Shown here in pieces: positions 1,963 through 31,752 of a stretch of 64,000 nucleotides of DNA; the stretch's first letter is position 1, and each line of letters begins with the position of its first letter. The notes under the pieces are model-generated. The model ran no database searches, was not told the origin of the DNA, and was given only the letters and a program-made list of their open reading frames with translations. The DNA is taken from the NCBI RefSeq assembly GCF_016862915.1, contig NZ_BONW01000005.1, positions 310,001 to 374,000 of the forward strand, given 5' to 3'. The stretch is from Plantactinospora endophytica (GTDB lineage: Bacteria; Actinomycetota; Actinomycetes; Mycobacteriales; Micromonosporaceae). The translations under genes were made by a program, and so were the position numbers.

Positions 1963-1995
1963 GAGAGATCCTCCGTGATCGTATCGACGGTCAGG

Positions 1996-3456: not shown

Positions 3457-3488
3457 ACCGAATTCGTCTATCGGGGTTGCTGCGTTAT

Positions 3489-3882: not shown

Positions 3883-3883
3883 C

Positions 3884-5059: not shown

Positions 5060-5081
5060 CACGCCCACCTCCGGAAACTGC

Positions 5082-5122: not shown

Positions 5123-5143
5123 GTGGACTGGAAGGAGTGCCGG

Positions 5144-6013: not shown

Positions 6014-6131
6014 CCGGCCCGTCGCGCCCGCCCCGAGCAGTCACGCCCGGCCCGGCCCGGATCGGTCGGTCGGTCCGTCAGGGCCGGATCCGCCGACGGG
6101 CGGCACGGCGAGGCCGGCTGGACGGGTCAGG

Positions 6132-6248
6132 TCAGCGGCGGCGGGTGCATCGACGTGCCGTGTCGGCCCGCCGCCCGGCGAGGATCGCCGCCGCGCAGGT
6201 GCCGAGCACGATGCCGACGAACGGCAGGAACTTCGTCGCCGCCCTCAT
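6132..6248 (-). CDS. 38-aa single-span membrane peptide, end of formate dehydrogenase operon
   Basis: ATG at 6248 overlaps the TGA of the nrfD-like gene (ATGA, 6245-6248), so translation is probably coupled. The 38-residue product begins MRAATKFLPFVGIVLGTC, has one hydrophobic segment (about residues 7-25, FLPFVGIVLGTCAAAILAG) and ends in a strongly basic tail (RRADTARRCTRRR), which by the positive-inside rule predicts a cytoplasmic C-terminus. It resembles the tiny accessory subunits that stabilise membrane oxidoreductases, but I do not know a named family for it. It sits as the last gene of the alpha - Fe-S - NrfD order. Coding is supported by the overlap, the sensible membrane topology and the G/C bias at third positions; the product itself is not proven. 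Confidence 0.6.
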   Translation of the reverse strand: MRAATKFLPFVGIVLGTCAAAILAGRRADTARRCTRRR

Positions 6249-7303: not shown

Positions 7304-7364
7304 CGACGTGCTCCGGAGGTGGTGTCGGACGGGACGGCGGACGGGTTCAATGCCCGCCGGCGGG

Positions 7365-8336: not shown

Positions 8337-8340
8337 CCGT

Positions 8341-11300
8341 TCACACCTCCGTTCCGGTTCCGGTGGTGATCCCGGCACGGCGCTGGTAGTCCCGGACCAT
8401 GGCCACCCGCTCCGGCCCGCGCGGTCGCCGGCCCGGCCGGATGTCGGCCGAGAACGCCTTGCTCTCCTGGATGTGCGAGTTCGGGTCCAGCGAGATCGAG
8501 GTGAGTTCGTTGGCCGCGTCGCCCCGGCTGTAGCCGTTCGGTCCCCAGTGGAACGGCAGCCCGATCTGGTGCACCACCCGCCCGTCGACGTGCAGCGGCG
8601 CGATCCGTTCGGTGACCAGCACCCGGGCTTCGATCGCGCTGCGGGCGGTGACGATGGTGGCCCAACCGCAGTGCACCAGCCCGCGTTCGGCGGCCAGCTC
8701 CGGCGAGATCTCGCAGAAGAACTCCGGCTGCAACTCGGCCAGGTACGGGGTGTGCCGCGTCATCCCACCGGCGGTGAAGTGCTCGGTCAGCCGGTACGTG
8801 GTCACCACGTACGGGAAGGTCTGGGCGCCGCGCTGCGAGCCGTTCGGGTGGTACCGGTTCTGCTCGTGCGGCCGGAGCAGTCGGGCCGGGTTGCGCTGCT
8901 GGCCGTAGAGCAGGTTGTCCACAGGGGAGTCCTGCGGCTCGTAGTGGGTCGGCAGCGGCCCGTCGATCACCCCGGTCGGCGCGAAGAGCCAGCCGAGCCC
9001 GTCGGCCTGCATGATGAACGCGTCGGTGCCGCTCAGCGCGGCGACCCCCTTGGCGTTCTTCGGCGGCACGTGGTCCGGCGGCTTGGTCGGCTCGAAGTCC
9101 GGTACGTCGTACCCGGTCCACCGGCCCGCGTCGGCGTCCCACCAGACGTACCTCTTGCGCTCGCTCCACGGCCGCCCGTCCGGTCGGGCCGAGGCCCGGT
9201 TGTAGAGCATCCGCCGGTTCGCCGGCCAGGCCCAGGCCCACTCCGGGGAGACCCAGTGCTGCTCCTCGGCCGGCTTGCGCCGGGCGGCCTGGTTGACCCC
9301 GTCCTTGTACACGCCGCAGTAGATCCAGCAGCCGCAGACCGTCGACCCGTCGTCGGCGAGTTCGGTGTACGTCGACAGTGGCCGGCCGTCCGCGTCCCAG
9401 CCGTTGATCTCGGCGAGTACCGCCTCGGCGTCCGGCTCGGCGGTCCGGCCCATCGTCGGGTAGTCCCAGGTCAGGTCGAGGATCGGCCGGTCCTTCGGAT
9501 CGGTCGAGCCGGCCAGCTTCTGCCGGATGATCCGACCCAGGTGGTACATGAACCAGAGGTCGCTGCGTCGGTCGTCGGCCGGCTCGACCGCCTGGTGGTG
9601 CCACTGGAGCAGCCGGTTGGTGTTGGTGAAGCTGCCGTCCTTCTCGGTGTGCGCCGCGGCCGGCAGCACGAAGACCTCGGTGCCGATCCGCTCGGTCTCC
9701 AACTCGCCGGAGGCGATCTCCGGCCCGTCCTTCCACCAGGTGGCGCTCTCGATCATCGTCAGGTCCCGGACGACCAACCAGTCCAGCTTGGCCATGCCGA
9801 GCCGCTGCATCCGGGCGTTCGACGAGCCGACCGCCGGGTTCTCGCCGAGCAGGAAGTAGCCCTTGCAGACGCCGTCGAGCTGCTCGATCACGGTGTCGTA
9901 GTGCGAGTGGCTGCCGGTCAGCCGGGGCAGGTAGCCGAAGCAGAAGTCGTTCTCCGGCGTCGCCGCCGCGCCCCACCACGCCTTGAGCAGGCTGACGGTG
10001 TAGGAGCGCATGTTCGCCCAGAAGCCCTTGCGGGCGGCGTCGGCCAGGATGAAGTCGTCCAGGGTCTGGGTCTTGTGCGCGTGCGGCATCGGGATGTAGC
10101 CGGGCAGCAGGTTGAACAGGGTCGGCACGTCGGTGGAGCCCTGGATGCTGGCGTGCCCACGCAACGCCTGGATGCCCCCGCCGGGCCGGCCGATGTTGCC
10201 GAGCAGCAGTTGCAGGATGCTGGCGGAGCGGATCAACTGCGAGCCGTCGGTGTGCTGGGTCCAGCCGACCGCGTAGACGAACTCGCTGGTCCGCTCCGGG
10301 CCGGAGTTGTCGACCAGGTGCCGGCACACCTCGGCGAAGACCTCCGGCGGGATGCCGCAGATCCGTTCCACCATCTCCGGGGTGTACCGGGAGAAGTGCC
10401 GCTTGAGGATCTGGTAGACGCAGCGCGGGTCGGTCAGCGTCAGGTCCCGGCGGGGATGGCCGTCCAGGGCCGCGCTGCCGGAGCCGAACTTCTCACCCCG
10501 GCCGGCGCCGTGCCCGTCGCGCTCCGCCGCCCGCTCCGCGTCGTCCTTGAGGCCCCGCCCGGCCGCCACCCGCGCCTCGAACTGGCTGTCCCGCTCGCCG
10601 GTGGCCGAGACCAGTTGCACGCCCTCGTACTGCCAGCTCTCCTCGCGGTAGGTGTGGCTCTCCGCGTCGAACCCGGAGAAGAGCCCGTCCAGGTCCTCGG
10701 TGTCCCGGAACCGCTCGTCGACGATGGTCGCGGCGTTCGTGTACGCCAGCACGTACTCCCGGAAGTCCTTCCCCTCGGTGAGTACGTGGTTGATGATCCC
10801 GCCGAGGAAGGCGATGTCGGTGCCGGCCCGGATCGGCACGTACAGGTCGGCCAGCGCGCTGGTCCGGGTGAACCGGGGATCGACGTGGATCACCGTGGCG
10901 CCCCGGGCCTTGGCCGCCAGCACCCACTGGAAGCCCACCGGGTGCGCCTCGGCGAAGTTGGAGCCCTCGATCACGATGCAGTCGGCGTGTTGCAGGTCCT
11001 GCATGAAGGTGGTCGCGCCGCCCCGCCCGAACGACGTGCCCAGCCCGATCACCGTGGAGCTGTGGCAGACCCGGGCCTGGTTCTCGACCTGCACCACGCC
11101 GAGGGCGGTGAGCAGCTTCTTGATCAGGTAGTTCTCCTCGTTGTCCAGGGTCGCTCCGCCGAGGCTGGCGATTCCCATCGTGCGGGCCACCCGGGTTCCC
11201 TCGTGGTGCTCCTGCCAGGTGTCCCGGCGGGTCCGGATCACCCGCTCGGCGATCATCTCCATCGCGGTGTCGAGGTCGAGGTCCTGCCAGTCGGTGGCGT

Positions 11301-11628
11301 ACGGCGGGCGGTAACGGACCTTGTCCAGCCGCCGCGAGTCGGTGGTCAGTTGCAGCGAGGCAGCACCCTTCGGGCAGAGCCGGCCCCGGCTCACCGGTGA
11401 GTCGGGATCACCCTCGATCTGCACCACCTGCTCGTCCCGGACGTAGACGTTCTGCGCGCAGCCGACGGCGCAGTACGGGCAGATCGACTTGACCACCCTG
11501 TCGGCTTCGGCGGTACGGGCGTGCAGTTCGGCGCTCTGCCGTGACTTCACCGAGGCAGCCCGGCCGGTCCGGTCGGGCCCGGTGAGCTGGCGCCAGACCG
11601 GCCACGAGCCGATCGGTAGACCCCGCAC
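8341..11628 (-). CDS. Formate dehydrogenase alpha subunit (FDH-N-like), cysteine variant, no Tat signal
   Basis: 1095-residue molybdopterin oxidoreductase that would oxidise formate to CO2. The N-terminal [4Fe-4S] site is C50-x2-C53-x3-C57 and C85. The active-site segment RVCHSSTVIGLGTSFGRGG aligns with the E. coli FdnG segment that carries selenocysteine; here the codon is TGC (11065-11067), giving Cys188 next to His189. Much of the rest tracks FdnG closely (EAHPVGFQWV, SRYTPEMVERICG, GWTQHTDGSQ, ALRGHASIQG), with an extra roughly 35-residue hydrophilic insertion near residues 435-470. The start is GTG 11628, five bases after AGGAGG. No twin-arginine signal is visible before the Fe-S cysteines, unlike FdnG, so the catalytic side may face the cytoplasm. 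The gene leads directly into the Fe-S subunit gene. Confidence 0.92.
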   Translation of the reverse strand: MRGLPIGSWPVWRQLTGPDRTGRAASVKSRQSAELHARTAEADRVVKSICPYCAVGCAQNVYVRDEQVVQIEGDPDSPVSRGRLCPKGAASLQLTTDSRRLDKVRYRPPYATDWQDLDLDTAMEMIAERVIRTRRDTWQEHHEGTRVARTMGIASLGGATLDNEENYLIKKLLTALGVVQVENQARVCHSSTVIGLGTSFGRGGATTFMQDLQHADCIVIEGSNFAEAHPVGFQWVLAAKARGATVIHVDPRFTRTSALADLYVPIRAGTDIAFLGGIINHVLTEGKDFREYVLAYTNAATIVDERFRDTEDLDGLFSGFDAESHTYREESWQYEGVQLVSATGERDSQFEARVAAGRGLKDDAERAAERDGHGAGRGEKFGSGSAALDGHPRRDLTLTDPRCVYQILKRHFSRYTPEMVERICGIPPEVFAEVCRHLVDNSGPERTSEFVYAVGWTQHTDGSQLIRSASILQLLLGNIGRPGGGIQALRGHASIQGSTDVPTLFNLLPGYIPMPHAHKTQTLDDFILADAARKGFWANMRSYTVSLLKAWWGAAATPENDFCFGYLPRLTGSHSHYDTVIEQLDGVCKGYFLLGENPAVGSSNARMQRLGMAKLDWLVVRDLTMIESATWWKDGPEIASGELETERIGTEVFVLPAAAHTEKDGSFTNTNRLLQWHHQAVEPADDRRSDLWFMYHLGRIIRQKLAGSTDPKDRPILDLTWDYPTMGRTAEPDAEAVLAEINGWDADGRPLSTYTELADDGSTVCGCWIYCGVYKDGVNQAARRKPAEEQHWVSPEWAWAWPANRRMLYNRASARPDGRPWSERKRYVWWDADAGRWTGYDVPDFEPTKPPDHVPPKNAKGVAALSGTDAFIMQADGLGWLFAPTGVIDGPLPTHYEPQDSPVDNLLYGQQRNPARLLRPHEQNRYHPNGSQRGAQTFPYVVTTYRLTEHFTAGGMTRHTPYLAELQPEFFCEISPELAAERGLVHCGWATIVTARSAIEARVLVTERIAPLHVDGRVVHQIGLPFHWGPNGYSRGDAANELTSISLDPNSHIQESKAFSADIRPGRRPRGPERVAMVRDYQRRAGITTGTGTEV

Positions 11629-11690
11629 CTGCGCCTCCTGTCGTCGATGCCCCGTCCCGCCGGCAGTACGCCGGGCTGGCGGCCCGCTCG

Positions 11691-11981
11691 CTACCGGTCG
11701 GTTCGGGCCAGCCCGTCGGCGTGGGCCCGGTCGCGCATCCAGTCCCGCACCTGTGGCGACGAGGTCGGGTTCACCTCGCGCGGGTTGACCAGTGCCTGGG
11801 TGCGGGACGGCAGCACGCCGGGGCGCTGCCGCTGCGCCCGGGTCACCGTGCCGCCGCCGTCGGCCGGGATCCCGGTGCCGACCAGGTACGCCTGTCCGGC
11901 GGGGATGCCCAGCTCCGCGCCGATCTCCTGATAGCTCCGGCCCAGGCCGACCAGGTGCAGCACCGCTGCCTTGCTCGCCAT
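11691..11981 (-). CDS. Small helix-turn-helix-like protein upstream of formate dehydrogenase
   Basis: 96-residue protein starting at ATG 11981 (a TTG at 12011 would add ten residues). Residues 1-40 read like a DNA-binding or sigma-region-4-like helix-turn-helix: KAAVLHLVGLGRSYQEIGAELGIPAGQAYL in pieces (VLHLVGLGRSYQEIG, then AELGIPAGQAYLV). The second half, with ALVNPREVNPTSSPQVRDWM, is polar and ends in basic residues. It lies 62 bp upstream of the alpha gene on the same strand, so it may be the first gene of the formate dehydrogenase operon and a candidate regulator or assembly factor. The sequence does not decide between these roles. I do not know a characterised homologue. Confidence 0.6.
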   Translation of the reverse strand: MASKAAVLHLVGLGRSYQEIGAELGIPAGQAYLVGTGIPADGGGTVTRAQRQRPGVLPSRTQALVNPREVNPTSSPQVRDWMRDRAHADGLARTDR

Positions 11982-12065
11982 GCCGACCCCGATCCCCGTA
12001 CCGACCGTCAACTACCGACAAGCCTCTCATTCCGCTCATGTCGCCGGAGCCGGTTTCCCAGGCCG

Positions 12066-12159
12066 GGCCGCGATCCGAGCCGAGGCAGGGCTCGGCCGCG
12101 ATCCGAGCCGAGGCAGGCTTCGAGCCGGGGCAGGTCTGGGCCGGGGCAGGTCTGGGCCG
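12066..12159. repeat. Two short tandem repeats in an intergenic region
   Basis: GGCCGCGATCCGAGCCGAGG plus CAGG recurs at 12066-12089 and 12094-12117 (28-bp period), followed by two copies of GGGGCAGGTCTGGGCC (16-bp period) at 12127-12158. The roughly 325-bp gap between 11982 and 12306 holds these repeats and the hairpin at 12258-12294; I see no gene in it. Confidence 0.7.
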
Positions 12160-12257
12160 CGGTCGGAGCCGAGCCGAGCGGACCGTGGCCGCAGATGCGG
12201 GTGGAGCGGGCCGTGCTGTGAGCCGGCACGAGTTCGACGGCGGCCGGAGATGCGGAA

Positions 12258-20974: not shown

Positions 20975-21712
20975 TCAGGCCCGTACGGTCACCAACGGAT
21001 CCACGTCACCGTCGTCGTCGATCACCTGCACCTGGAGCTGGCCGATGTCGTCCGAGTCGGTGGACGTGGCGGTCTCCAGCGGCAGCGGGTTGGGCTGGGC
21101 CTTCGTGCCGTAGCCCTCCGGTGGCACCTTCCAGCTCGACAGGGGCTCGACGTCCCCGTTCTTGTGGATCAGCACCAGCCGGCACGTCTTCGGACCGGAC
21201 AACCCGCTCAACGCGTACGAGATCCGGGTGCCCCAGGGGGTGGAACCCAGGACCACCTCCATGGTCACCCCGCTGGTCGAGTCGGTCGCGGTCAGCCGCT
21301 GGCCGGCGGGGGCGGGCCGGCCGGTGGCACTCGGGCCGGTGCCGGGCGGCTGGGCGGTGGTCGCCGGATCGGCGAGCTGGGTCCCGGCGAACAGCGCCGC
21401 ACCGCTCAGCGTCGCCACCAGGACGAACCCGGCCGCGAGACTGTAGAGCCGTCGGCTGCGGGCCCGGCGCCGGTCCGCACCGACCGCTGCGACGACCCGC
21501 TCGAAGAGCATGCCGTCGGTCTCCGAACGCTCGGCCACCACCAGGTCGTGGCCGTCGACCTCGGCCAGCACGTCCACCACCGGGAGCAGTGACTCCAGCT
21601 CCAGCCCGCACTGTGCGCAGCCCGCCAGGTGCTCCTCGAAGCGCAGGGTGTCGCGTTCGTCGAGAACGCCGAGCGCGTACGACGCGACGTCCCAGTGGAT
21701 CTCGGCGTTCAC
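20975..21712 (-). CDS. Anti-sigma factor with zinc-finger (ZAS/HC2) domain
   Basis: 245-residue membrane anti-sigma factor. The cytoplasmic N-terminus carries the zinc-binding H-x3-C-x2-C motif (HLAGCAQC, about residues 28-35) preceded by the WDVASYALGVLDERD helix typical of sigma-binding anti-sigma domains. One transmembrane segment follows (YSLAAGFVLVATLSGAALFAG, about 90-110), then an exported domain of about 110 residues (DUF4349/RskA-C-like) with TPWGTRISYALSGL and CRLVLIHKNGDVEPLSSW. The architecture matches RskA/RslA-type proteins that release their sigma factor after regulated proteolysis. GTG 21712 overlaps the TGA of the sigma gene (GTGA), so the two are made in balance. It would hold the upstream sigma factor inactive at the membrane. 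Confidence 0.9.
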   Translation of the reverse strand: MNAEIHWDVASYALGVLDERDTLRFEEHLAGCAQCGLELESLLPVVDVLAEVDGHDLVVAERSETDGMLFERVVAAVGADRRRARSRRLYSLAAGFVLVATLSGAALFAGTQLADPATTAQPPGTGPSATGRPAPAGQRLTATDSTSGVTMEVVLGSTPWGTRISYALSGLSGPKTCRLVLIHKNGDVEPLSSWKVPPEGYGTKAQPNPLPLETATSTDSDDIGQLQVQVIDDDGDVDPLVTVRA

Positions 21713-22269
21713 TCGGTCACCCCCCGCTCCAGCAGAGCCGCGCGGAGCGCCCGGAGCGCGTAGTAGACCCGGGACTTCGCGGTGCCGAGCGGCAACCCGA
21801 GTTCCTCGGCCGCCTCCGGCACGGTGCGTCCCTGGAAGTACGTCGCCACCAGCACCTCCCGGTGCGGCTGGCTCAGTGTGCGCAGGGCGTCGGTGATGGT
21901 CATCATCCGCAGCACCCGGTCCGTGTCGTCCGACTCGGAGAACCCTTCGAGGTCCCGGTCGTACGTCTCGGCGGGTCGGGCCTGCTCGCTGCGGTGGTCG
22001 TCGATCACGATCCGCCGGGCCACGGTGACGAGCCAGGGGCGCAGTGACGACTGGCCCTGGGTGCCGAGTCGGTGTGCGTTGCGCCAGGCGCGTAGCAACG
22101 TCTCCTGTACGACGTCCTCGGCGCGCTGGCGGTCGCCGCCGGTGAGCCGCAGGACGAACATCAACAGAGGTTTGGCATGTTCCTCGTAGAGCACTCGGAC
22201 GAGTTCGTCGGAGTGCCTCGTCTCGGCGGGGGTCGAATTATGGCGGCCGGCAGCCGGTCGCGGTGTCAC
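21709..22269 (-). CDS. ECF RNA polymerase sigma factor
   Basis: 186-residue group 4 sigma factor. Region 2 (LLMFVLRLTGGDRQRAEDVV, QETLLRAWRNAHRL, PWLVTVARRIVIDDHRSEQA) and region 4 (LRTLSQPHREVLVATYFQGR, TVPEAAEELGLPLGTAKSRV) are both clear, with no region 3, as expected. GTG 22269 is chosen because region 2 begins at about residue 25 from there; the much longer upstream frame has no sigma similarity and runs through the promoter region. The ribosome-binding site is weak. The partner anti-sigma gene overlaps its stop. The domain order and the lipoprotein gene downstream resemble the SigK/SigL-type loci of actinomycetes. The signal sensed is unknown. Confidence 0.9.
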   Translation of the reverse strand: MTPRPAAGRHNSTPAETRHSDELVRVLYEEHAKPLLMFVLRLTGGDRQRAEDVVQETLLRAWRNAHRLGTQGQSSLRPWLVTVARRIVIDDHRSEQARPAETYDRDLEGFSESDDTDRVLRMMTITDALRTLSQPHREVLVATYFQGRTVPEAAEELGLPLGTAKSRVYYALRALRAALLERGVTE

Positions 22270-22754
22270 CGGCCCATCATTCCGTTCGACGGGCCGCGCG
22301 TCGAGACTTTTCCGGTACCGAATTGACCGGCGTTGCGAGGTGGCGCACATTCGCCCCGGCATGACCGTGTCGCCATACCATCCGCTGGCTACCGCCTGCA
22401 TCGCACCCATACCTCCGCGTCGACGCGCACGACCCCCCGGCCCCGTGCCGGGCACTGTCGAGCCGCCGACGAGAGGTACGGATTCCGACCGGGCCCGGAT
22501 CAACGGACATCGGAGAAGTTCTGTGCGAACCCGCAGGTCCGGCGCCGGTGCATCCCGGTCTGTCCGTCTAGATGACGATGTCTGGCCGACCGGACGACGG
22601 CGCCCACCCGACGAAACAGCGACGCCTGCCCGACAGGGCAACGGCGCTTCCCGACGGACCACGGACGGAACAGCGGCGCCCGCCCGACAAGGCAGCGTTG
22701 CCTCCCCGACGGAACAGCGGCGCCGTGCCTGAGGGAACGGCGGCGCCGGTCCGG
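22270..22754. other. 485-bp gap holding the sigma promoter region and degenerate repeats
   Basis: No gene is supported. The part next to the sigma start (22290-22340) contains the AT-richer CGAGACTTTTCCGGTACCG and GAATTGACCGGCGTTGCG, a plausible promoter. From about 22610 to 22754 there are two to three degenerate copies of a unit resembling CGACGGAACAGCGGCGCC. These give misleading open frames on both strands. Confidence 0.5.
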
Positions 22755-23612
22755 CTAGATGGCGATGTGGAAGCTGCCCGGCGGAGGTGGTGTGGACGGC
22801 CGGGCGGCGCTGTCGGTGACCACCCGGGCACCGTCGGCGAAGCGGTCCAGGTCGGGGCCGGTCAGCACCCGGCCGGGAAACCAGTCCCCGGCGGTACGCC
22901 GGACCAGGTCCGGGATCGGCAGTTCGGCACGGCTGGCGGCCAGCACCAGGTTGCCGTACCGGCGACCGCGCAGCACCGCCGAGTCGGCGATCAGGCAGAC
23001 CTCGGGCAGTACCGCGCGCAACGTGGCGACCTGGGCGCGGGCGTACTTCAACGGCGGGCCGTCCGCGACGTTGACCACGTGCACGCCGCCGGAGCGCAGT
23101 ACCCGGGCCGCCTCGGCGGCGAACTCCACAGAGGACAGATGGGCCGGGGTACGGGCACCGGCGAAGACGTCGGCCACCACCACGTCGTAGCTGCCGTCCG
23201 GTGCCGTGCCGAGCACCTCCCGGGCGTCGCCGACCCGGACCCGCAGCCGGGGGTCGGCCGGCCAGGGCAGCTTCTGCCGGACCAGGTCCACCAGGGCCGC
23301 GTCGACTTCGACCACCCGCTGCGGCGAGCCGGGCCGGGTGGTCGAGACGTACCGGGGCAGGGTCAGCGCTCCGCCGCCGAGGTGCAGGACCCGCAGCGGT
23401 TCACCGGCCGGCGCGACGAGGTCCAGCACGATGGCGATCCGGCGGACGTACTCGAATTCCAGGTGTGTCGGGTCGGTGAGGTCGACGTGCGACTGCGGCG
23501 CCCCGTCGACCAGCAGGGTGTACGAGTTCGGCCGGTCCGGGTCCGGGCGCAGTTCCGCGAGACCGCCGGCCACCTTCACCGCGATCGCGTCACTGCGCCG
23601 TTTCCGCCCCAC
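22755..23612 (-). CDS. Spermidine synthase-like methyltransferase-fold protein
   Basis: 285-residue protein of the spermidine synthase-like family. The SAM/dcSAM-binding fold is seen as LRVLHLGGGALTLPRYV (motif I, about residues 74-90), VVEVDAALVDLVRQKL (acidic residue at the end of strand 2), VRVGDAREVLG and YDVVVADVFAG. The N-terminal beta domain (SYTLLVDGAPQSHVDLTDP, HLEFEYVRRI) is the tetramerisation domain of such enzymes. The D-x-F-A-G in place of the polyamine-binding aspartates of true spermidine synthase suggests another, unknown substrate. It starts at GTG 23612, 19 bp behind the NurA-like gene, so it appears to be the last gene of the HerA-Mre11-Rad50 operon. Whether it takes part in DNA processing is an open question; it may simply be co-transcribed. 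Confidence 0.8.
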   Translation of the reverse strand: MGRKRRSDAIAVKVAGGLAELRPDPDRPNSYTLLVDGAPQSHVDLTDPTHLEFEYVRRIAIVLDLVAPAGEPLRVLHLGGGALTLPRYVSTTRPGSPQRVVEVDAALVDLVRQKLPWPADPRLRVRVGDAREVLGTAPDGSYDVVVADVFAGARTPAHLSSVEFAAEAARVLRSGGVHVVNVADGPPLKYARAQVATLRAVLPEVCLIADSAVLRGRRYGNLVLAASRAELPIPDLVRRTAGDWFPGRVLTGPDLDRFADGARVVTDSAARPSTPPPPGSFHIAI

Positions 23613-23631: not shown

Positions 23632-24603
23632 TCAGCGGGTGTAGGCCGGCGGGGCGGCCCGGGTGGTGGCGAGGGTGAGGGCGCGGTGCAGCAGCCGGCC
23701 GTCGCCGAGCCGGGCCCGCAGCCGGCGTTCCAGCCCGGCGATCGGGATCAAATTCTGCGGGGCCCGCGGGTCCTTGTAGGGGGTGGAGGCGAACTTCGGC
23801 AGGGTGACCAGGGAGAGGTTGGCCAGCTCGACCGCCTGCTGCTCGGCCAGTTCGGCCGAGCACTCGACCCGGACGATCCCGGCCCACGGGCCGCGCCCCG
23901 AGCCGGGCAGCCGCAGATACCACGAGTAGCCGCCCCAGGCCGTACCGAGCCGGAACACCGGGGAGCGTTCCCGGGCGCGCAGCCCGGTGACGAGCGCGGT
24001 GTGCCGGGCGTCGAGGTATTGGCTGTGCTGGGTCTTGATGTAGCCGAGGGTGCGCGGCAGTTGCCGCCGGCTGCGCAGCGGGCCGTCCACCACCAGCAGG
24101 TCGCCGTCGTCGCGGACCGCGCCGGAGACCTTCACTTCGAGCGCGGTCAGCGGCCCCTGCACCGCCGCCGGCAGCTTGCTCAACTCGCCGGTCCCGCTGA
24201 GCCGGTGTACGGCGTACCGGATCTGCCCCGCGACCACGTCCTGCGCGGACGGGCTGGCGGTGAAGAGTCCCCGCTCCACCTCGGCACCGGCCAGTTCCGC
24301 CGCGCCCCGGCGCAGGTCGCACCGGACCACCCCGGCGGCGTACGAGGCGGCCAGGCCGGGGTACGAGGTGCCGTCCGGCTCCTCCGTCCAGACGCTGGCG
24401 TCGATCCGGCGTACCCCGTCGACCAGCAACACCACGTCCGGCGGCTCGACGGAGTCCGGGGCGGTGAGCGGGCGCCACTCGTCGGCGGGCAGCTCGACGT
24501 CGGTCTGCACCTGGGCACTGCTCGGTGCCGCCGGTCCACCGGGTGCCTCGAACGAGGCGCCGTAGGCCGGATCCCAGGCGTCGACGAAGAGCCGGGCGTT
24601 CAC
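23632..24603 (-). CDS. NurA-like nuclease-domain protein of the HerA-Mre11-Rad50 operon
   Basis: 323-residue protein I assign tentatively to the NurA nuclease family. Conserved-looking acidic points fall where NurA has them: LLVDGVRRID (Asp62), an internal TALEV (Glu155), LLVVDGPLRSR (Asp173) with GYIKTQHSQYL after it, and a C-terminal DPRAPQNLIPIAGLERRLRA segment close to the family's end motif. In NurA these residues bind Mn2+ for 5'-3' exonuclease and endonuclease activity in complex with HerA. GTG 24603 overlaps the TGA of the SbcC/Rad50 gene by four bases, and HerA and Mre11 genes lie upstream, so the context strongly supports the assignment. Similarity is too low to be sure by eye; a hypothetical protein of the same operon is the alternative. 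Confidence 0.65.
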   Translation of the reverse strand: MNARLFVDAWDPAYGASFEAPGGPAAPSSAQVQTDVELPADEWRPLTAPDSVEPPDVVLLVDGVRRIDASVWTEEPDGTSYPGLAASYAAGVVRCDLRRGAAELAGAEVERGLFTASPSAQDVVAGQIRYAVHRLSGTGELSKLPAAVQGPLTALEVKVSGAVRDDGDLLVVDGPLRSRRQLPRTLGYIKTQHSQYLDARHTALVTGLRARERSPVFRLGTAWGGYSWYLRLPGSGRGPWAGIVRVECSAELAEQQAVELANLSLVTLPKFASTPYKDPRAPQNLIPIAGLERRLRARLGDGRLLHRALTLATTRAAPPAYTR

Positions 24604-27083
24604 CGGCCGGTCCGTTCCACCCGGGAGCTGCGGGCGTCCTTGCGTACCTCGAACCGGACCGGGATCCGTTCGGCCAGCGCCGGTACGTGGGTGACCACCC
24701 CGACCATCCGGTCGCCCCGGGCGGCCAGGTTTTCCAGCGTGGCGGCGACGGTGTCCAGAGTGGACGCGTCCAGGGTGCCGAAGCCCTCGTCGAGGACGAT
24801 CGACTCCAGGCTGGCGGTGGTGGTCGACAGTCCGGCGAGCTGTTCGGAGAGGGCCAGCGCCAGTGCCAGCGACGCCTGGAAGGTCTCGCCGCCCGACAGC
24901 GTCCGTACCGCCCGGCGCAGCCCGGCGTCGTGGTGGTCGAGTACGAAGAACTCGCCCTTGTCGTGGGTCAGGTCGTATTGACCGTCGGTCAGTTCGCGCA
25001 GGATCCGGGAGGCGCCGTCGACCAGCAGGTCGAGCGCCTCGGCGAGCAGCCAACGTTCGAAGTTGTTGGCCCGCAGGTGCCCGGCGAGCGCCTTGGCGAC
25101 CCGGGACTCGCGCTCGTGCCCGGCCCGCTGTTCGCGCAGCTCCCGGGCCTGCTCACGGCGTTCGACCAGCCGCCGGTGCTCGGCCTCGGCCCGCTCGACG
25201 GCGACCACGGCCAGTCGTACCGGGTCGGCCTCGGCGGCCGGACGGTCGTGCCCGGCGGCGGTGAAGAGCGCGGCGACCCGTTCCGTCACGGCGTCGACGG
25301 TGTGCCGCGCCTCGGTCACCGCCGAGGCGGCGTCGGCCCGCTTCGCGCGGCGCTCCTCGGTGGCCCGGGCCGCCCAGTCGGCGAGCCCGGCCCAGGCGGC
25401 GGTCACGTCGGCCCGGTCGGCGGCGGGCGGGCCGAGCCGGGCCACCCCGTCCCGGACGGTGTCGAAGGCGTGCCAGGCGCCGCGCAGCCGCTCCTCGGCC
25501 GCCTCCACGCCGGCCCGGGCCCGGCGGGCGGTCTCCCGGGCCGCGCGCACCGCGCCGCCGGCCGTCTCCAGGTCGCGGCGGAGCTTGGCGAGCGTGTCGA
25601 GCTGCTCGCGCAGCGCGGCCGGGCCGGGCGAGTCGGCGAGTCGGGCGTCGAGGTCGGCCAGTCGGGCGGTGAGTTGCTCGTGCCGGGCGCGGGCCTGGTC
25701 GAGGGTGCGTTCCAGATCGCGGGCGGCCCGGTCCCGCTCGGCCACCAGCCGGTCGGCGGCGTCGGCGGCTGCCCTGGCTGCCTCGCCGGCCTTCTTCGCG
25801 GCGGCCACCGCCGAGCCCGTCGGCAGCGCCGGCACCTCGGTCACCGGCTGCGCGCAGACCGGGCAGGGCGCCCCGGCGTGCAGGTGGGCCCGCAGTGCCG
25901 CCGCCCGGTCGGCGGTCTGCGCCTCCTGGTAGGCGGTCCGGGCCGCTTCCAACTCCGCGCCGGCCCGCGCGGCGGCGGCCCGGGCCGATTCGAGCGCGGC
26001 CACCGCCGCGTCGTGGTCGGCGCCGGCCGAGTCCAGCGCGCCGGCCAGCGTCGCCGCCTCGCCGGCCACCTGCTTGCGCTCGGTGTGCGCCTGTTGCAAC
26101 AGCCGCAGCGCCGCCGGGTCGCCGGCACCGGCCAGCTCGCCCCGGAGCTTCTCCTCGCGTTCCTCGGCCACCGTCACCGCCGCCGACGCCTCGATGGCCT
26201 CCGCCCGCGCGCCCGCGACCGCCTCGGCGACCACCGCCAGATCCCGGGGCGGCCGGACCCGGGCGAGTTCGGCGAGTTCGGCGTCGAGCGCGGCCAGCCC
26301 GCGTTCCGCCTCGGTCGCGGCGGTACGGGCGGCCCGGAGTTCGGGTACGGCCGCGTCGACCCCGCCGGCCAGTTCCCGCATCGCGTCAACCCGGGCGGTG
26401 GCGGTGGCCAGGGCGTCGTCGTCGATCCCGGTCAGCCCGTCGAGTACCCGGGCGACGGTCTCCAGCGCGGCGTCGGCCCGGCCGGCCCGGGCGGTGGCCC
26501 GCTTCTGCACCTCCTCGTAGACGCCGAGGCCGAGCAGGTTGACCAGGATCTGCTGCCGGGTCGCCGGTTTGGCGTGCAGGAAGTCCGCGAACTGCCCCTG
26601 CGGCAGCAACACGCAGCTGGTGAACTGCTCGTACGGCAGCCCGACCGCCTCCAGCACCGCCTCGTCCATCTCGGCCGGGGTGCCGGCGACCACCTCGCCG
26701 AGGTCGTCCGGGCTCAGCCCGGTGTCAAGTTTGGTCACGTCGAAGCCGGCCGGCATCAGTTGCAGGCCGGCGTTGCCGGTCTTGACGTTGCCCCGGCCGT
26801 CCCGCCGGACCACCCGGGTCGCCACGTAGCGGGCGCCGGCCGACTCGAAGACCAGTCGGACCCGGGCCTCGGCGGCCGACGGTGCCAGCGCGTTGGCGAT
26901 GCCCCGGGCGCCGCCCCAGCGCGGTGCGGTGCCGTAGAGGGCGAAGCAGATCGCGTCGAGCACGCTGGACTTGCCCGACCCGGTCGGCCCGACCAGGGCG
27001 AAGAAGTCCGCGTCGGTGAAGTCGACGGTGGTGGCCTCCCGGAAGGCGGTGAAGCCGGCCAGGTCGAGCCGGAGCGGACGCAC
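24600..27083 (-). CDS. sbcC: SbcC/Rad50-type SMC-family ATPase
   Basis: 827-residue ATPase of DNA double-strand-end processing. The N-terminal Walker A is GPTGSGKSS (32-40), Q-loop segment CVLLPQGQFADFLHAKP near 157-173, then a long coiled coil. The zinc hook CPVC is at 407-410, almost exactly mid-protein. The second coil leads to the ABC signature LSGGETFQASLALALALSEQ and Walker B SIVLDEGFGTLD with the D-loop. All motifs are intact. It is shorter than E. coli SbcC (about 1050) and typical of actinomycete forms. GTG 27083 has GAGGAGG about 11 bases upstream. It starts 22 bp after the SbcD gene and its stop overlaps the NurA-like start. With SbcD it forms an ATP-dependent nuclease that opens hairpins and blocked ends. 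Confidence 0.93.
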   Translation of the reverse strand: MRPLRLDLAGFTAFREATTVDFTDADFFALVGPTGSGKSSVLDAICFALYGTAPRWGGARGIANALAPSAAEARVRLVFESAGARYVATRVVRRDGRGNVKTGNAGLQLMPAGFDVTKLDTGLSPDDLGEVVAGTPAEMDEAVLEAVGLPYEQFTSCVLLPQGQFADFLHAKPATRQQILVNLLGLGVYEEVQKRATARAGRADAALETVARVLDGLTGIDDDALATATARVDAMRELAGGVDAAVPELRAARTAATEAERGLAALDAELAELARVRPPRDLAVVAEAVAGARAEAIEASAAVTVAEEREEKLRGELAGAGDPAALRLLQQAHTERKQVAGEAATLAGALDSAGADHDAAVAALESARAAAARAGAELEAARTAYQEAQTADRAAALRAHLHAGAPCPVCAQPVTEVPALPTGSAVAAAKKAGEAARAAADAADRLVAERDRAARDLERTLDQARARHEQLTARLADLDARLADSPGPAALREQLDTLAKLRRDLETAGGAVRAARETARRARAGVEAAEERLRGAWHAFDTVRDGVARLGPPAADRADVTAAWAGLADWAARATEERRAKRADAASAVTEARHTVDAVTERVAALFTAAGHDRPAAEADPVRLAVVAVERAEAEHRRLVERREQARELREQRAGHERESRVAKALAGHLRANNFERWLLAEALDLLVDGASRILRELTDGQYDLTHDKGEFFVLDHHDAGLRRAVRTLSGGETFQASLALALALSEQLAGLSTTTASLESIVLDEGFGTLDASTLDTVAATLENLAARGDRMVGVVTHVPALAERIPVRFEVRKDARSSRVERTGR

Positions 27084-27105
27084 TATTAGGTCGCCTCCTC
27101 GTCCA

Positions 27106-28254
27106 TCACGGTTTCGACGCCTCCTCGTAGAGTTCGTCGAAGAGTTCGCGTACCCCGTCGTCGGCCTGGCCCCGGCTGGTCAGGTAGTCGCCGAACAGCT
27201 CTCTCGGGGAACGGCCGGCCCGCTGGGCGGCCCGGGTCGCACCGGAGTTGGGCAGCAGTTCCGGGTCGATCCGGATCTCCAGGGCCCGGGGCAGCAACTC
27301 CTGCACCTCCTCACGCAGCCCGGCCCGGGGCGCCTCCCGGACGAGGACCCGCAGCCAGGCCGTGGAGTCGTCGATCCTGGCGAGTTCGGCCAGCGTGCCG
27401 CGTACGGTGCGCAGCGGCGCCGCCGCCGTGATCGGGACCTCCCGGACCCGGGCGGCGGTCCGGGTGGTCACCTCGACGATGCTGACCGAGGGCCGGTTCT
27501 CCTCCTCGCCGAAGTCGATCGGCAGCGGGCTGCCGCTGTAGCGGACGTGACACGGCCCGAGCACCTGCTGGGCCCGGTGCAGGTGACCCAGTGCCACGTA
27601 GTGCGCGCCGCCCGGAAAGACCGAGGCCGGTACGGCGTAGTTGAGCACCGTGTGCGCCTCCCGTTCACCGCCGCCGGTGCGGGCGCCGACCACCGTCATG
27701 TGCCCGGTGACCAGGTGCACCCGGTCGGGGGAGTCGAAGCCCTCGGTCAGCCGGGCGAGCACCCGCCCCACGTGGTCGGCGTACGTCTGCACCGCCTCGG
27801 CGGCGGTCAGCTCGTACATCTCGACGGCGCGGACCGCGTACCGCTGGGAGAGGAACGGCAGCGCGACCAGCCGCCACGCCTCGCCCCCGGCGGTGGTGCC
27901 GTCGATGATGTGCTCGGCCGGGTTGTCCCGGACGCTGCCCCGCAGCGCGATGCCGGCGGCCTCGGCCCACGGGCGCAGCGCGTCCAGGGCCGGGCCGTTG
28001 TCGTGGTTGCCGCCGATCGCGACGACCTGGGCCCCGGTGTTGCGCAGCGCGGAGAGGGCCCGGGTGACCAGCCGGGTCGCCTCCGGGGTCGGCGCCGCGG
28101 TGTCGTAGAGGTCACCGGCGACGATCACCAGGTCGGGGGACTCGGCCTTGGCGACCTCGACGAGCTGGGCGAGGGCGTCCCGGTGCTCGCCGATCCGGGA
28201 CTGTCCCTTGAGGACCTTACCGACGTGCCAGTCGGAGGTGTGCAGGATCTTCAC
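27106..28254 (-). CDS. sbcD: SbcD/Mre11-type exonuclease subunit
   Basis: 382-residue calcineurin-like phosphoesterase that provides the Mn2+-dependent nuclease of the SbcCD/Mre11-Rad50 complex. Metal-binding motifs are in order DWHVG (Asp8, His10), VAGDLYDTAAP, IGGNHDNGPAL, LVTGHMTVVG and ALGHLHRAQQ. The capping domain and a C-terminal Rad50-binding helix region (about 320-382, ending RELFDELYEEASKP) follow. ATG 28254 lies 15 bp after the HerA stop. All metal ligands are present, so the enzyme should be active. Gene order HerA, SbcD, SbcC, NurA-like on one transcript suggests the four products work together on DNA ends. Confidence 0.93.
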   Translation of the reverse strand: MKILHTSDWHVGKVLKGQSRIGEHRDALAQLVEVAKAESPDLVIVAGDLYDTAAPTPEATRLVTRALSALRNTGAQVVAIGGNHDNGPALDALRPWAEAAGIALRGSVRDNPAEHIIDGTTAGGEAWRLVALPFLSQRYAVRAVEMYELTAAEAVQTYADHVGRVLARLTEGFDSPDRVHLVTGHMTVVGARTGGGEREAHTVLNYAVPASVFPGGAHYVALGHLHRAQQVLGPCHVRYSGSPLPIDFGEEENRPSVSIVEVTTRTAARVREVPITAAAPLRTVRGTLAELARIDDSTAWLRVLVREAPRAGLREEVQELLPRALEIRIDPELLPNSGATRAAQRAGRSPRELFGDYLTSRGQADDGVRELFDELYEEASKP

Positions 28255-28269
28255 GGGCCGCCCGTAACT

Positions 28270-30027
28270 CTAGAAGGGGATGTCGTCGTCGGAGAGCGTT
28301 CCGGCCCGCCCGCCGACCACCGCGAACGGGTCGGCGGCCTGGGTGATCGAGCGGAGCGTCCCGGACGGGGCGGCGCCGGCCTCGGAGACCCGGGTCGCCC
28401 AGGCCGGGAAGGGGAAGTCCAGGCAGAGCGGTACCGGGATGTCCGGCTGGTTGACGAACATGGTGCCGGGCTTGGCGAGCAGCGCCCGCTGCCGCTGCGC
28501 GGCGGGGAGGAAGCCGTACTCCGGGCGGGACGCCTCGGCCGGGTCGAGCCGGCCCACCACCCGGATCGCCGAGTTGGTGACGATCCGCCGCTCCACCTCG
28601 CTGGCGGTCTGCTGCGCGCCGATCAGGATCACCCCGAGCGAGCGGCCCCGCTCGGCGATGTCCAGCAGCACCTCCTTGATCGGCGAGGACCCCTCCCGAG
28701 GGGCGTACTTGTTCAGCTCGTCGAGGACGACGAAGAGCAGCGGCTTGGCGGTGCCGGCCTTCTCCTTGCGCTCGAACTCGGTCTTCAGGGTCACCCCGAC
28801 CACGAACCGCTGCGCCCGGTCCGGCAGGTTGTGCAGGTCGACCACGGTCACCTGCGCGCTCTCGCTGGTGTTCACGCTGTGCGGTCGGCGAGTGGCCAGA
28901 TCTCCCCTGATCAGCCGGGCCAGGTCCTTCTTGCTGCCGATCAGCCGGCGGGCGAACGCGTTGACGGTGCCCATGTTGACCGCGCTGCCGGCCCACTCCG
29001 AGCGGGTCTCGTCGTCGGTGAGCTGCTCGACGACGTGGTCGACCAGGTCGGGGTAGGAGTTGATGCGTACCCCGTCGACGCTGACCCCGCCGTCGGCGGG
29101 CTGGGCGTACCGGGCCAGGTGGGCGGCGACCGAGTGCACGACCATGGTGTATTGCTGGCGCTCGTCGTCGGCGTCGGCGAAGACGTACGGCAGCAGGCGG
29201 TCGGCGCAGAACTCGGTGAGCGTCCAGTAGAAGCTGTCCACTCCGGAGAGTCGGCTGCTCACGTCCGGGGTGCCGGAGGAGTCGCCGGCCCGGGGCGGCG
29301 CGTAGACCCGGACGTCCGGGAACGCCCCGGCGTCCAGCCCCAACTTGGCGTACGTCTCGGTGGTGGGCCCGTCCAGCCGGCTGTTGGGGTGGTCGAGGAA
29401 GAGCAGGTCCTCGCCCTTGACGTTGAAGATCAGTGCCTTGGCGTTCACCGCGTCGCCGCCGAGCACCCCGGAGCGGAAGACCGAGTAGAGCAGGAAGGTG
29501 GCGAAGCTGGTCTTGGTGGCCACCCCGGAGATGCCGGAGATCGACACGTGTGCGCCCCGGGAGCCGTCCAGGAAGTCGGCGTTGAGGAAGACGGGTACGC
29601 CGTCCCGGCCGATCCCCATCGGCACCCGGCGTTCCATCCGGTCGAAGTGCAACGCCGCCGACCGGGCCTCGCCCTCGGCCCGGTAGACCACCGCGCCGGG
29701 CGACGGCGGCACGTAGAACTCCGGGTCGACCCGGGTGGTGGTGATCTCGGCCGCCTCCTGGACCATCGCCGGCAGGGTGCCGTCGGCGATGGCGAAGACG
29801 TCGGAGTCGAACTGTGCGCCCTCGTGCCGGGCCCGGACCTGGGTGACCACTCCGGCGATGGTGACCGGCTCCCGGTCGGGCAGCTCGCGCCGGGTCACCA
29901 CCACGTCGTCGAGCTGGAGGTAGCTGCCCGGGTGGACGGCCGTCCAGAACTGCAACGGGGTGGCGTCGGCGGTGCCGAGCACCCGGCCGACCTCGGTGCC
30001 CGGACCCTCGGGTGGGCTGTCGGTCAC
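28270..30027 (-). CDS. herA: HerA-type hexameric DNA-translocating ATPase
   Basis: 585-residue ATPase of the FtsK-HerA superfamily. The N-terminal about 60 residues (GRVLGTADATPLQFWTAV, then GSYLQLDDVVVTRRE) fit the HAS-barrel domain that binds NurA and DNA in archaeal HerA. The Walker A is a variant, GISGVATKTS (165-174), found in the bacterial branch; Walker B is LLFVVLDELNKYAP with Asp436-Glu437. The late segment VERRIVTNSAIRVVGRLDPAE is the region with the sensor and arginine finger. The start is GTG 30027. It is the first gene of a five-gene minus-strand operon and is divergent from the phosphodiesterase gene, with the promoter expected in 30028-30273. In archaea HerA threads DNA into NurA with help of Mre11-Rad50; the same partners follow here. 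Confidence 0.88.
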   Translation of the reverse strand: MTDSPPEGPGTEVGRVLGTADATPLQFWTAVHPGSYLQLDDVVVTRRELPDREPVTIAGVVTQVRARHEGAQFDSDVFAIADGTLPAMVQEAAEITTTRVDPEFYVPPSPGAVVYRAEGEARSAALHFDRMERRVPMGIGRDGVPVFLNADFLDGSRGAHVSISGISGVATKTSFATFLLYSVFRSGVLGGDAVNAKALIFNVKGEDLLFLDHPNSRLDGPTTETYAKLGLDAGAFPDVRVYAPPRAGDSSGTPDVSSRLSGVDSFYWTLTEFCADRLLPYVFADADDERQQYTMVVHSVAAHLARYAQPADGGVSVDGVRINSYPDLVDHVVEQLTDDETRSEWAGSAVNMGTVNAFARRLIGSKKDLARLIRGDLATRRPHSVNTSESAQVTVVDLHNLPDRAQRFVVGVTLKTEFERKEKAGTAKPLLFVVLDELNKYAPREGSSPIKEVLLDIAERGRSLGVILIGAQQTASEVERRIVTNSAIRVVGRLDPAEASRPEYGFLPAAQRQRALLAKPGTMFVNQPDIPVPLCLDFPFPAWATRVSEAGAAPSGTLRSITQAADPFAVVGGRAGTLSDDDIPF

Positions 30028-30273
30028 CGCGCGACTCCGGTCGGTGTCGCCCCGGTCGCCGTCGGCCCGGTCAGGGTAGGAATCTGGTCAAGACACACGA
30101 GTCGCATCCTGCCTCACTAGTACGACACCGTGCCACGCGGCGCGGCGGGAACGCCCGAGGGAGCATCCCGTGGCCGCCGGGTTCGTCCCGTGGTCGGTCG
30201 TACACGGCTGCTTTGCGCCACCTTAACCAGATCTTGGCGGTCCGCTCCCGGTGTCCGGCTAGCCTCCTGCGCC

Positions 30274-31752
30274 ATGATGACCCTCAATCCGCCCACCGGC
30301 CGGGGCAACACGCCGGCACCGGTCCCGCGCGCCACCGGCCGGCGCCGGCGTACCCCGGCCGTCGTGGCCCTGCTGCTGGCCGTGGCCGCCGGTGCCGGAA
30401 GTGCCGTCACCGCCGAGCCCGCTCCGGCCGCCGCCGAGCCGGGCCGGGTGCACGTCTCGGCGAACTTCGACAACGGCGCGCTGCCGGCCGGCTGGCGGGC
30501 GGTCGACGGCACCTGGCGGGTGCAGAACGGCCGGCTGTACGGCACCTCGGCCAGCTCCAGCCAGAACAACAAGATCACATTTGGGGCGTACCTGGAGCAC
30601 TTCCGCTTCGAGGCGACCGTACGCTTCGAGTCCGTGACCGCGAGCACCCGCTGGGCCGCGCTCGGCCTCGACGTACCGGCCACCGGGGCGACCCCGTGGT
30701 GGATCGCCACCATGCGCAGCGGCAGCACCGCCGCCAACGGGCTGGAGTTCGCCGAGCGCACCACCGGCAACGCCTGGAACGTGACGAACACCGCCGCCGC
30801 GCCGACCGCCGCCGGCACCGGCCGGGACGTCCGGGTCGCCATCGAGGTCTACGGCAGCCAGGCCCGGTGGTCCTTCGACGGCCGGGAGATCCTCCGGACC
30901 GGCAGCCTGCGCCGCTCCGGCACGGCCGGTCAGGCGCTCTTCGTCAACGGCGCCACCGTCTCCTTCGACGACGTCCGGATCACCGAGCTGGCCCCGAGCC
31001 CCCTGCTCCGGCGGCCGGGCGGCCCGGTCGCGGTGATCGCCCACCGGGGCGCCTCGGCGGCGGCGCCGGAGAACACCCTGGTCGCCCAGGATCTGGCCCG
31101 CCGGGGCGGCGCGGACTGGATCGAGAACGACGTGCAGCCGAGCAGCGACGGCGTCCCGTTCGTGCTGCACGACTCGACGGTGGACCGCACCACCGACGGC
31201 ACCGGCGCGATCCGCTCGCTGACCAGTACCCGGCTCAAGACGCTGGACGCCGGCTCCTGGTTCGCCCCGCAGTTCGCCGGGACCCGGATGCCGACCCTGG
31301 CCGAGCAGTTGGCGGATCTGCGTACCAAGGGCGGTCGGCTGGTGCTGGAGATCAAGGGCGCGCACAGCCGGGCCGAGGTGTCCCGGATCGTCCAGGTGGT
31401 CCGCGAGCAGCAGATGACCGAGCGGGTACTGGTGCAGAGCTTCGAGGTGGACGTGCTGCGGTACACCCGCGAACTCGCCCCGGAGCTGCCGCTCGGGCTG
31501 CTCCGCAGCACCCTGGACGCGGATCCGGTGGCCATCTCGGCGTCGCTCGGCCTGGCCACCTACAACCCGTCGTCGGCGGCCCTGCTCAGCCGGCCGGCGA
31601 TCGTCGGCAACCTGCACCGGGCCGGGATCGCGCTGATGGTCTGGACGGTGGACACCCCGACCGGCTGGCGGCAGCTCGACGACCTGGGCGTGGACGGGAT
31701 CATCACCAACCGCCCGGCCGAACTCGTCACCTGGAACGCCGGCCAGAACTAG
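30274..31752 (+). CDS. Secreted glycerophosphodiester phosphodiesterase with N-terminal beta-sandwich domain
   Basis: 492-residue exported enzyme. A signal peptide with several arginines (RATGRRRRTPAVVALLLAVA) spans about residues 19-50 and ends near AEPAPAAAEPG. Residues about 58-230 form a LamG/DUF1080-like sandwich (VSANFDNGALPAGWRAVDGT, WRVQNGRLYGTSAS), and 245-490 form the GDPD barrel. The catalytic region reads VIAHRGASAAAPENTL (His and Arg of the HRG motif, Glu of PENT), followed by WIENDVQPSSDGVPFVLHD with the metal-binding Glu-Asn-Asp and the second catalytic His, and DRTTDGTG. It would release glycerol-3-phosphate from phospholipid head groups or teichoic acids outside the cell, feeding phosphate scavenging. 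ATG 30274 is used; ATG 30277 is next to it. No clear RBS. A strong hairpin ends it. Confidence 0.88.
   Translation: MMTLNPPTGRGNTPAPVPRATGRRRRTPAVVALLLAVAAGAGSAVTAEPAPAAAEPGRVHVSANFDNGALPAGWRAVDGTWRVQNGRLYGTSASSSQNNKITFGAYLEHFRFEATVRFESVTASTRWAALGLDVPATGATPWWIATMRSGSTAANGLEFAERTTGNAWNVTNTAAAPTAAGTGRDVRVAIEVYGSQARWSFDGREILRTGSLRRSGTAGQALFVNGATVSFDDVRITELAPSPLLRRPGGPVAVIAHRGASAAAPENTLVAQDLARRGGADWIENDVQPSSDGVPFVLHDSTVDRTTDGTGAIRSLTSTRLKTLDAGSWFAPQFAGTRMPTLAEQLADLRTKGGRLVLEIKGAHSRAEVSRIVQVVREQQMTERVLVQSFEVDVLRYTRELAPELPLGLLRSTLDADPVAISASLGLATYNPSSAALLSRPAIVGNLHRAGIALMVWTVDTPTGWRQLDDLGVDGIITNRPAELVTWNAGQN

Follow-up and report, generated by a model that had tools for sequence, protein, structure and literature searches.

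The window analysed here, a 64,000-nucleotide stretch of the Plantactinospora endophytica genome (contig NZ_BONW01000005.1, positions 310,001 to 374,000), carries a herA-sbcD-sbcC-nurA operon on the minus strand, confirmed as complete from 30027 to 23632. The coordinates, strand, gene lengths and intergenic gaps (15, 22 and -4 bp) given by a first-pass annotation of this DNA are correct, and so is its naming of the products as HerA, SbcD, SbcC and NurA, each of which is supported by profile or domain matches together with motifs. The likeness that it drew to the archaeal four-gene resection cluster is borne out by four adjacent genes on one strand. A survey of gene order, which it had proposed, was made in a Micromonosporaceae-centred sample of 20 regions, taken from 20 of the 27 genomes in which nurA was matched (the window's own genome being among the 27). 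The order herA-sbcD-sbcC-nurA is kept in 19 of the 20, and the remaining region (L046) stops at a contig end, so that the arrangement is not due to chance. Gene spacing differs among the relatives, with herA lying 4.6 kb from sbcD in L039, 3.1 kb in L045 and 0.95 kb in L042. In L043 (G007), the sbcD and nurA matches each fall in two separate frames, which may reflect sequencing error or decay.

Table 1. Genes and sequence features of the herA-sbcD-sbcC-nurA operon, in window coordinates.
Feature	Position	Strand	Description
herA	30027-28270	-	585 aa; Deinococcus-type HerA/FtsK DNA translocase, N-terminal HAS-barrel-like region, C-terminal SSB-like tip
sbcD (Mre11) nuclease	28254-27106	-	382 aa; TIGR00619 match, phosphoesterase motifs
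sbcC (Rad50) ATPase	27083-24600	-	827 aa; CPVC zinc hook
nurA nuclease	24603-23632	-	323 aa, GTG start; start overlaps sbcC stop by 4 bp
Codons of HerA C-terminal DDDIPF tip	28273..28290	-	IPF 47/47 in Micromonosporaceae-type HerAs
Codons of DPF motif in HerA tail, upstream of tip	28324..28332	-	conserved in 19 aligned HerAs
Codons of deviant HerA Walker A GISGVATKTS	29506..29535	-	G165, S167-S174 invariant in HerA profile alignment

Family-level comparison identifies the 323-residue protein as NurA. Taken alone, it scores 13.1 bits against the Pfam NurA model (PF09376), below the cut-off of 21, and the whole genome yields no match to this model at E≤0.001; 15 of 19 aligned NurA relatives match it at E≤1 (best 3e-6). 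A profile built from 19 aligned NurAs and searched against PDB sequences retrieved Deinococcus radiodurans NurA (drNurA; 7f6d_H, E 1.1e-39) and Thermotoga maritima TM1739 (1zup, E 2e-8), with nothing else at E≤10. This resolves the sub-threshold Pfam result: the profile check suggested in the first-pass annotation succeeds for the family and falls short for the single protein. The motifs VDG, DGPL and RAPQN are present, D62, D173, K190 and R280 are invariant in the 19 aligned rows, and the catalytic D53, K201 and R309 of drNurA map to D62, K190 and R280. Mutating these three drNurA residues abolished drNurA-HerA resection, according to sections of PMC9960219.

The motor is HerA of the Deinococcus type. 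Its profile finds D. radiodurans HerA (drHerA; 7f6d, 7wrw and 7wrx) among PDB sequences at E 1.7e-179, the next match standing at 9e-4, and profile residues 5-551 align to drHerA across the HAS-barrel and the RecA-like motor. The motifs ATKTS and FVVLDE are present. Its Walker A, GISGVATKTS, is without the canonical GK, as is that of drHerA; K172 and T173 of this motif, and D207, align to drHerA K175, T176 and D220, and the Walker B pair D436/E437, R444 and R501 align to D487/E488, R495 and R552. Extracts of PMC9960219 report that mutation of R495, R552 or the Walker B acids abolished drNurA-HerA resection. Pfam TerD matches on HerA (best 0.024) were set aside as chance or superfamily-level. 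SbcD exceeds the cut-off of the NCBIfam model TIGR00619 (177.4 bits against 77.65) and has the phosphoesterase motifs DWH, GDLYD, GNHD and GHLH. SbcC scores below the cut-offs of the full-length SbcC models of NCBIfam; it matches PF13558 at 43.4 bits (cut-off 27) and has a Walker A (GPTGSGKS), a CPVC hook and an LSGG signature. PF13558 matches once in the genome, in this protein, the only SbcC detected.

HerA terminates in LSDDDIPF, and its last six residues are letter for letter those of the Escherichia coli single-stranded DNA-binding protein (SSB) tail, which binds more than a dozen proteins as recounted in portions of PMC4137731. By its letters the terminus has the SSB C-terminal form, in which acids precede a hydrophobic residue or proline followed by Pro-Phe at the exact end, after a variable linker; as far as excerpts of PMC4137731 and PMC3000357 describe the E. 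coli tip, the two agree in all these respects. The HerA tip sits on a double-stranded DNA motor, whereas that of SSB sits on an OB-fold single-stranded DNA-binding protein. All 47 Micromonosporaceae-type HerAs (score over 1070) end in IPF, 36 of them in DDDIPF, at 28-37 residues from an ATRxxE[AS]G motif. Chance, or a cause at the DNA level such as the sbcD ribosome-binding site or an overlapping signal, was rejected as the origin of the tip: its codons vary synonymously among the 47 (ATC/ATT; CCG/CCC/CCT/CCA), as do the stop codons that follow (TAG in 24, TGA in 15, TAA in 8), and the tip persists where sbcD lies 0.95-4.6 kb away (L039, L042 and L045). A genome-wide search for DDDIPF followed by TAA or TGA returned nothing, and carries little weight since the pattern is blind to the window's own herA, which stops with TAG.

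We propose, at a probability of roughly two in three, that the four genes encode a DNA-end resection machine of the archaeal and Deinococcus kind, whose HerA tip would mimic the SSB tip to dock RecO and/or SbcC and which would act beside AdnAB. Judging from characterised homologues, SbcCD would act on hairpins and blocked ends, opening or cleaning them. A NurA dimer, docked on the HAS-barrel side of a HerA hexamer, would receive the duplex that the hexamer pumps and would cut mainly the 5' strand to leave a 3' tail for RecA; parts of PMC9960219 describe 5'-strand cutting by NurA while HerA pumps double-stranded DNA into it. The step put forward here is that flexible HerA tails ending in DDDIPF may imitate the SSB tip and so bind proteins that have a pocket for it. 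The likeliest partners would be RecO, the RecA-loading mediator, which is detected in this genome, and/or SbcC of the same operon. Docking of this kind would tie resection to SbcCD or to RecA loading. In E. coli the SSB tail is bound by RecO (portions of PMC7913777). In Bacillus subtilis RecO belongs to the SSB C-terminal interactome, and GFP-SbcC needs the C-terminus of SSB to localise at forks (both from sections of PMC3000357).

The genome offers a setting for such a machine. Of the four nuclease domains matched by PF12705, two lie in adjacent UvrD-PDDEXK proteins of 1298 and 1217 residues that we read, by domain make-up, as an AdnAB-like pair; no curated NCBIfam model reached its cut-off on them. 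This pair supports the earlier suggestion of a second end-processing route beside AdnAB or RecBCD. RecJ_OB was undetected in the window's genome, the same model matching in 10 of 14 genomes as a control, and the machine would thus act without detectable RecJ.

How far the tip extends beyond the family was assessed by looking for [ILMVAP]PF at the exact terminus and counting distinct C-termini. It occurs in 63 of 157 HerAs, 62 of which have two or more acids just before it, and in none of 123 SbcD, 80 SbcC or 116 NurA proteins. Two standard cassettes exist, nurA-herA-sbcD-sbcC (order A) and herA-sbcD-sbcC-nurA (order B). The tip ends 47 of 66 HerAs of order B, 1 of 51 of order A and 15 of 40 of unknown order. 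The sole tipped HerA of order A (L138), ending SDDGMPF, belongs to the second system of G319. This genome has two HerA-NurA systems that differ in gene order, and the tipped one, at G319:C1:329500-335000, is that of order A. Other forms of the tip in order B or close kin are GLPF, ELPF, DLPF, GMPF, LVPF and APF, with DDDIPPF in Nonomuraea; a Streptomyces plasmid HerA ending DEPPY was scored as tip-less, and further lineages terminate in a DPFxGL-like end. The cyanobacterial HerAs L165, L177 and L190 end in DDDIEF, DDDVEF or DEDIEF; typical cyanobacterial SSBs, when found, end in DDIPF or DEIPF, so that these HerA ends have E for P. On a quick tree of 139 HerAs, made with the tail left out of the alignment and containing some long branches (L138 included), the tip needs six changes, at least four of them forced by the starred branches and each either a gain or a loss, and gene order changes once among rows of known order.

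This pattern admits a bolder proposal, which we hold tentatively and at somewhat less than even odds: bacterial HerA may have evolved an SSB-tip mimic more than once, and a hexamer bearing up to six SSB-type tails could summon RecO and SbcC before SSB coats the DNA. A single machine beside AdnAB would then join the opening of ends to resection and to strand-exchange loading. Best-scoring SSBs from 20 hand-picked genomes end in VPF or PPF in all 15 genomes with a HerA tip, and in EPF, EPF, APF, GGF, and LPF with GSF in the five tip-less genomes; second SSB paralogues mostly have no such end. The agreement between SSB type and HerA tip is confounded by ancestry and is not proof.

SSB tails can fold back on SSB, and an acidic HerA tail might equally dock inside the same resection complex, on NurA, on the DNA-entry side of HerA or on basic DNA-binding surfaces, and autoregulate loading. 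HerA tails are indeed acidic and placed after the motor domain, and a DPF motif upstream of the tip (in 19 rows P567 never varies, and D566 and F568 hardly do) recurs close to the C-terminus of many tip-less HerAs, those of many Actinomycetota ending, or nearly ending, in DPF. The last fourteen residues of drHerA are disordered, as passages of PMC9960219 state. Internal docking alone leaves unexplained why several lineages converge on acids followed by [h]PF at the exact C-terminus, and this convergence on the partner-docking signature of SSB weakens it; we consider it unlikely.

Linkage among the four genes was examined at increasing phylogenetic distance. Among 41 genomes (own, genus, family and order), nurA is found in 27, comprising 25 of 25 in the window's family and 2 of 16 in other families of the order; the linkage, which the first-pass annotation had called less common, is so for bacteria at large and not for this family. 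An even sample of 396 Actinomycetota genomes contains 109 with any HerA match, 65 with a strong herA (best E no higher than 2e-62, the match after these being 1.1e-26), 64 with nurA and 63 with both. The co-occurrence count leaves out the 44 of 109 genomes with weaker HerA matches (best E 1.1e-26); part of these, in family code f33, probably represent a HerA that has diverged further, and others, short matches in long frames, are probably EccC- or FtsK-like. Many genomes of that one actinobacterial family (f33, and L130 of G101) have such a divergent HerA, with best E about 1e-15 to 1e-26, and among them a NurA-like gene was detected beside HerA in G101 only. The two genes share a contig in 57 of the 63 genomes, always on the same strand (different contigs in 6), with 30 pairs arranged nurA-herA at 0-192 bp and 27 arranged herA...nurA at 3.5-18 kb.

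Names across bacteria were available for the best 80 of 502 confirmed loci, to which the following refers. In three Deinococcales loci from metagenome-assembled genomes (MAGs) and nine Thermus/Meiothermus loci, nurA-herA has no sbcDC beside it within the flank covered, which is short in L159 and L174. Order A occurs in Trueperaceae, some Thermaceae MAGs and five cyanobacteria, and Micromonosporaceae, Acidimicrobiia and Gemmatimonadetes MAGs are mostly of order B; some of these order-B-type loci have no nurA in view, many of them ending at a contig end. That NurA relatives might regularly occur without herA, sbcD and sbcC, a possibility raised at the outset, is contradicted for herA by the 63 of 64 nurA genomes with a strong herA; sbcDC lies beside herA/nurA in most Actinomycetota regions examined and not in most Deinococcota loci.

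Such loci could mean that this is a housekeeping SbcCD locus with which HerA-NurA is merely co-inherited for other DNA work, for example a segregation-like translocation, the tip being a lineage-specific site for another partner such as the sliding clamp. HerA is a relative of FtsK, many Deinococcota loci are nurA-herA without sbcDC in the flank covered (L158-160, L163, L167-170 and others), and Deinococcus deletion phenotypes are mild in the sections of PMC9960219 that treat them. We nevertheless judge mere co-inheritance improbable, as the four genes are linked, in one or the other of two orders, in Actinomycetota, Gemmatimonadetes MAGs, several cyanobacteria and a Chloroflexota plasmid. As for the clamp, QLxLF, which we take to be its binding motif, is absent from DDDIPF.

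A defence function was also weighed, the first-pass annotation having raised an anti-phage role. Searching 72,556 plasmid records with tblastn gave 6 records with the HerA query and 4 with the NurA query, one of which, a Nonomuraea record of 11.85 Mb, looks like a chromosome. Plasmid-borne copies were found in Streptomyces sp. BB1-1-1, Sphaerospermopsis, Aulosira and Chlorohelix. The Streptomyces plasmid has an order-B cassette with JetA- and JetB-type (Wadjet) genes in its vicinity, along with an M78 peptidase, and so represents a mobile version adjacent to defence genes. At this locus (L154, NZ_CP134205.1 412751-430376) HerA ends DPWPDDTDDGAIDEPPY, and a TIGR02680 protein stands near with the M78 (IrrE-like) peptidase. 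On the Chlorohelix plasmid, nurA-herA-sbcD-sbcC, recognised by profile matches, is preceded by an ECF sigma factor, an unknown gene and an M78 (IrrE-like) peptidase; the Aulosira plasmid has the same upstream block and then a HerA match, its SbcD- and SbcC-type neighbours being assigned by annotation and size only. A common block (ECF sigma, unknown gene, M78 IrrE-like peptidase, a gene, HerA-type ATPase and SbcD/SbcC-type genes) is seen in L157 at 2874-12188 (Chloroflexota plasmid) and L259 at 1522-10834 (cyanobacterial plasmid), perhaps a damage-regulated mobile repair cassette. The plasmid-borne cassettes of Streptomyces, Chlorohelix and Aulosira imply that the module moves.

An anti-phage or anti-plasmid module would fit these mobile copies, and PADLOC MADS models match SbcC at 1e-27 and HerA at 2.6e-9. 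These matches were rejected as an indication of system identity, being chance or superfamily-level: no PADLOC family matches NurA, and those matching HerA, SbcC and SbcD do so at superfamily level only. For the window's copy, moreover, the locus holds the only SbcC detected, nurA is present throughout the family, and neighbours are partly conserved among the 20 family and order regions, whose flanks differ in extent, with a ribD-like gene upstream in 14 and, downstream, an ECF sigma gene in 7 and a spermidine-synthase-like gene in 6. In the window itself, the stretch downstream of nurA (20975-23612) has a spermidine-synthase-like gene after a gap of 19 bp, together with genes for an ECF sigma factor and a zf-HC2 anti-sigma-like protein; these are kept in part of the family. 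The conserved neighbours favour a vertically inherited core locus; together with the PADLOC results and the single SbcC, they leave the anti-phage role unsupported for this copy, and we regard defence as very improbable. Although the module moves, the copy in the window has the look of a set of core genes and probably forms a core resection system.

Several observations weigh against the resection machine with a recruiting tip. Many HerAs do without the tip, among them 19 of 66 of order B and the Deinococcota HerAs of the loci examined (though Deinococcota SSBs found end EEDLPF), so that the tip is inessential to HerA-NurA, and the genome's own SSB ends DDEPPF, differing from HerA's DDDIPF. 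Nine cyanobacterial herA loci (L172, L176, L179, L181, L184-186, L189 and L191) have neither nurA nor sbcDC nearby, which also speaks for mere co-inheritance. Just upstream of herA there is no match with one mismatch or fewer to GAACNNNNGTTC, which we take to be the SOS box; the nearest, with one mismatch, lies inside herA at 29716, and a PafBC-type motif, likewise assumed, has no match with three mismatches or fewer in 29440-31176. The NurA-binding residues D78/E80/D81 of drHerA map to D76/F78/A79, one acid being kept and two replaced, so the HerA-NurA interface is only partly conserved; extracts of PMC9960219 note that these drHerA residues align poorly in other bacteria. The SbcC-SSB link consists of foci only in the portions of PMC3000357 that report it, with in vitro interaction not determined and SbcC missing from the SSB Tap-tag. 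An SSB-like motif can be dispensable, as in DdrB of Deinococcus, a single-stranded DNA-annealing protein whose motif is not needed for radioresistance (PMC3834827). Finally, nurA and herA deletions in D. radiodurans or Thermus gave modest effects or improved resistance, on the account in sections of PMC9960219.

Two of these subjects have further particulars. The nine cyanobacterial HerAs are of Pseudanabaena type and terminate in VKRL or a close variant. Across the whole window (1-64000), GAACNNNNGTTC occurs with one mismatch or fewer 35 times against 17.6 expected, and there is one perfect copy at 1105-1116.

The kind of machine proposed is already established; what appears to differ here is the SSB-like HerA tail and the conserved four-gene form in this bacterial group. 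D. radiodurans NurA-HerA (7f6d, 7wrw, 7wrx; PMC9960219) belongs to the same HerA and NurA subfamilies, with the deviant Walker A and the catalytic and translocation residues in common. The three Deinococcales MAG loci have nurA-herA, no sbcDC within about 1-7 kb downstream and no acidic-PF tip, whereas the cassette in the window opens with herA, has sbcDC between herA and nurA, and includes the tip. An acidic-PF tip is likewise missing from the loci of Thermus, Meiothermus and Thermaceae examined. The Deinococcus phylum is without RecBCD/AddAB as told in parts of PMC9960219, unlike the window's genome with its AdnAB-like pair. The archaeal herA-mre11-rad50-nurA cluster of Sulfolobus has the same four functions, linked, and sections of PMC2288612 describe its co-transcription in S. 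acidocaldarius and an interaction of Mre11 with HerA; SbcCD of the window is of bacterial type, and its NurA and HerA belong to the bacterial subfamily, less than 20% identical to the archaeal ones by the figure in an extract of PMC9960219. Bacterial HerA is linked to sbcD-sbcC at the Oceanithermus profundus hepA locus too (excerpts of PMC5448004), with sbcDC directly after hepA in the Thermales manner.

In the literature consulted, bacterial HerA-NurA is discussed mainly from Deinococcus-Thermus, where its phenotypes are mild and its job is called unclear in passages of PMC9960219. One sentence in the available part of a 2021 review (PMC8708640) places NurA and HerA homologues in Actinobacteria and Cyanobacteria, and the openly licensed literature searched yielded, among the matches listed, no publication on an actinobacterial HerA-NurA-SbcCD cassette. 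The four-gene form is conserved in this bacterial group and hardly described in the literature consulted. By our comparison the partnership of HerA-NurA with SbcCD is conserved in a large actinomycete family, and at least in this genome it stands beside an AdnAB-like pair. The HerA tip supplies a concrete, cheaply testable hypothesis for how, without RecJ, resection may be handed off to SbcCD or to the loading of RecA. If true, an unrelated DNA motor would have repeatedly acquired the signal by which SSB recruits its partners.

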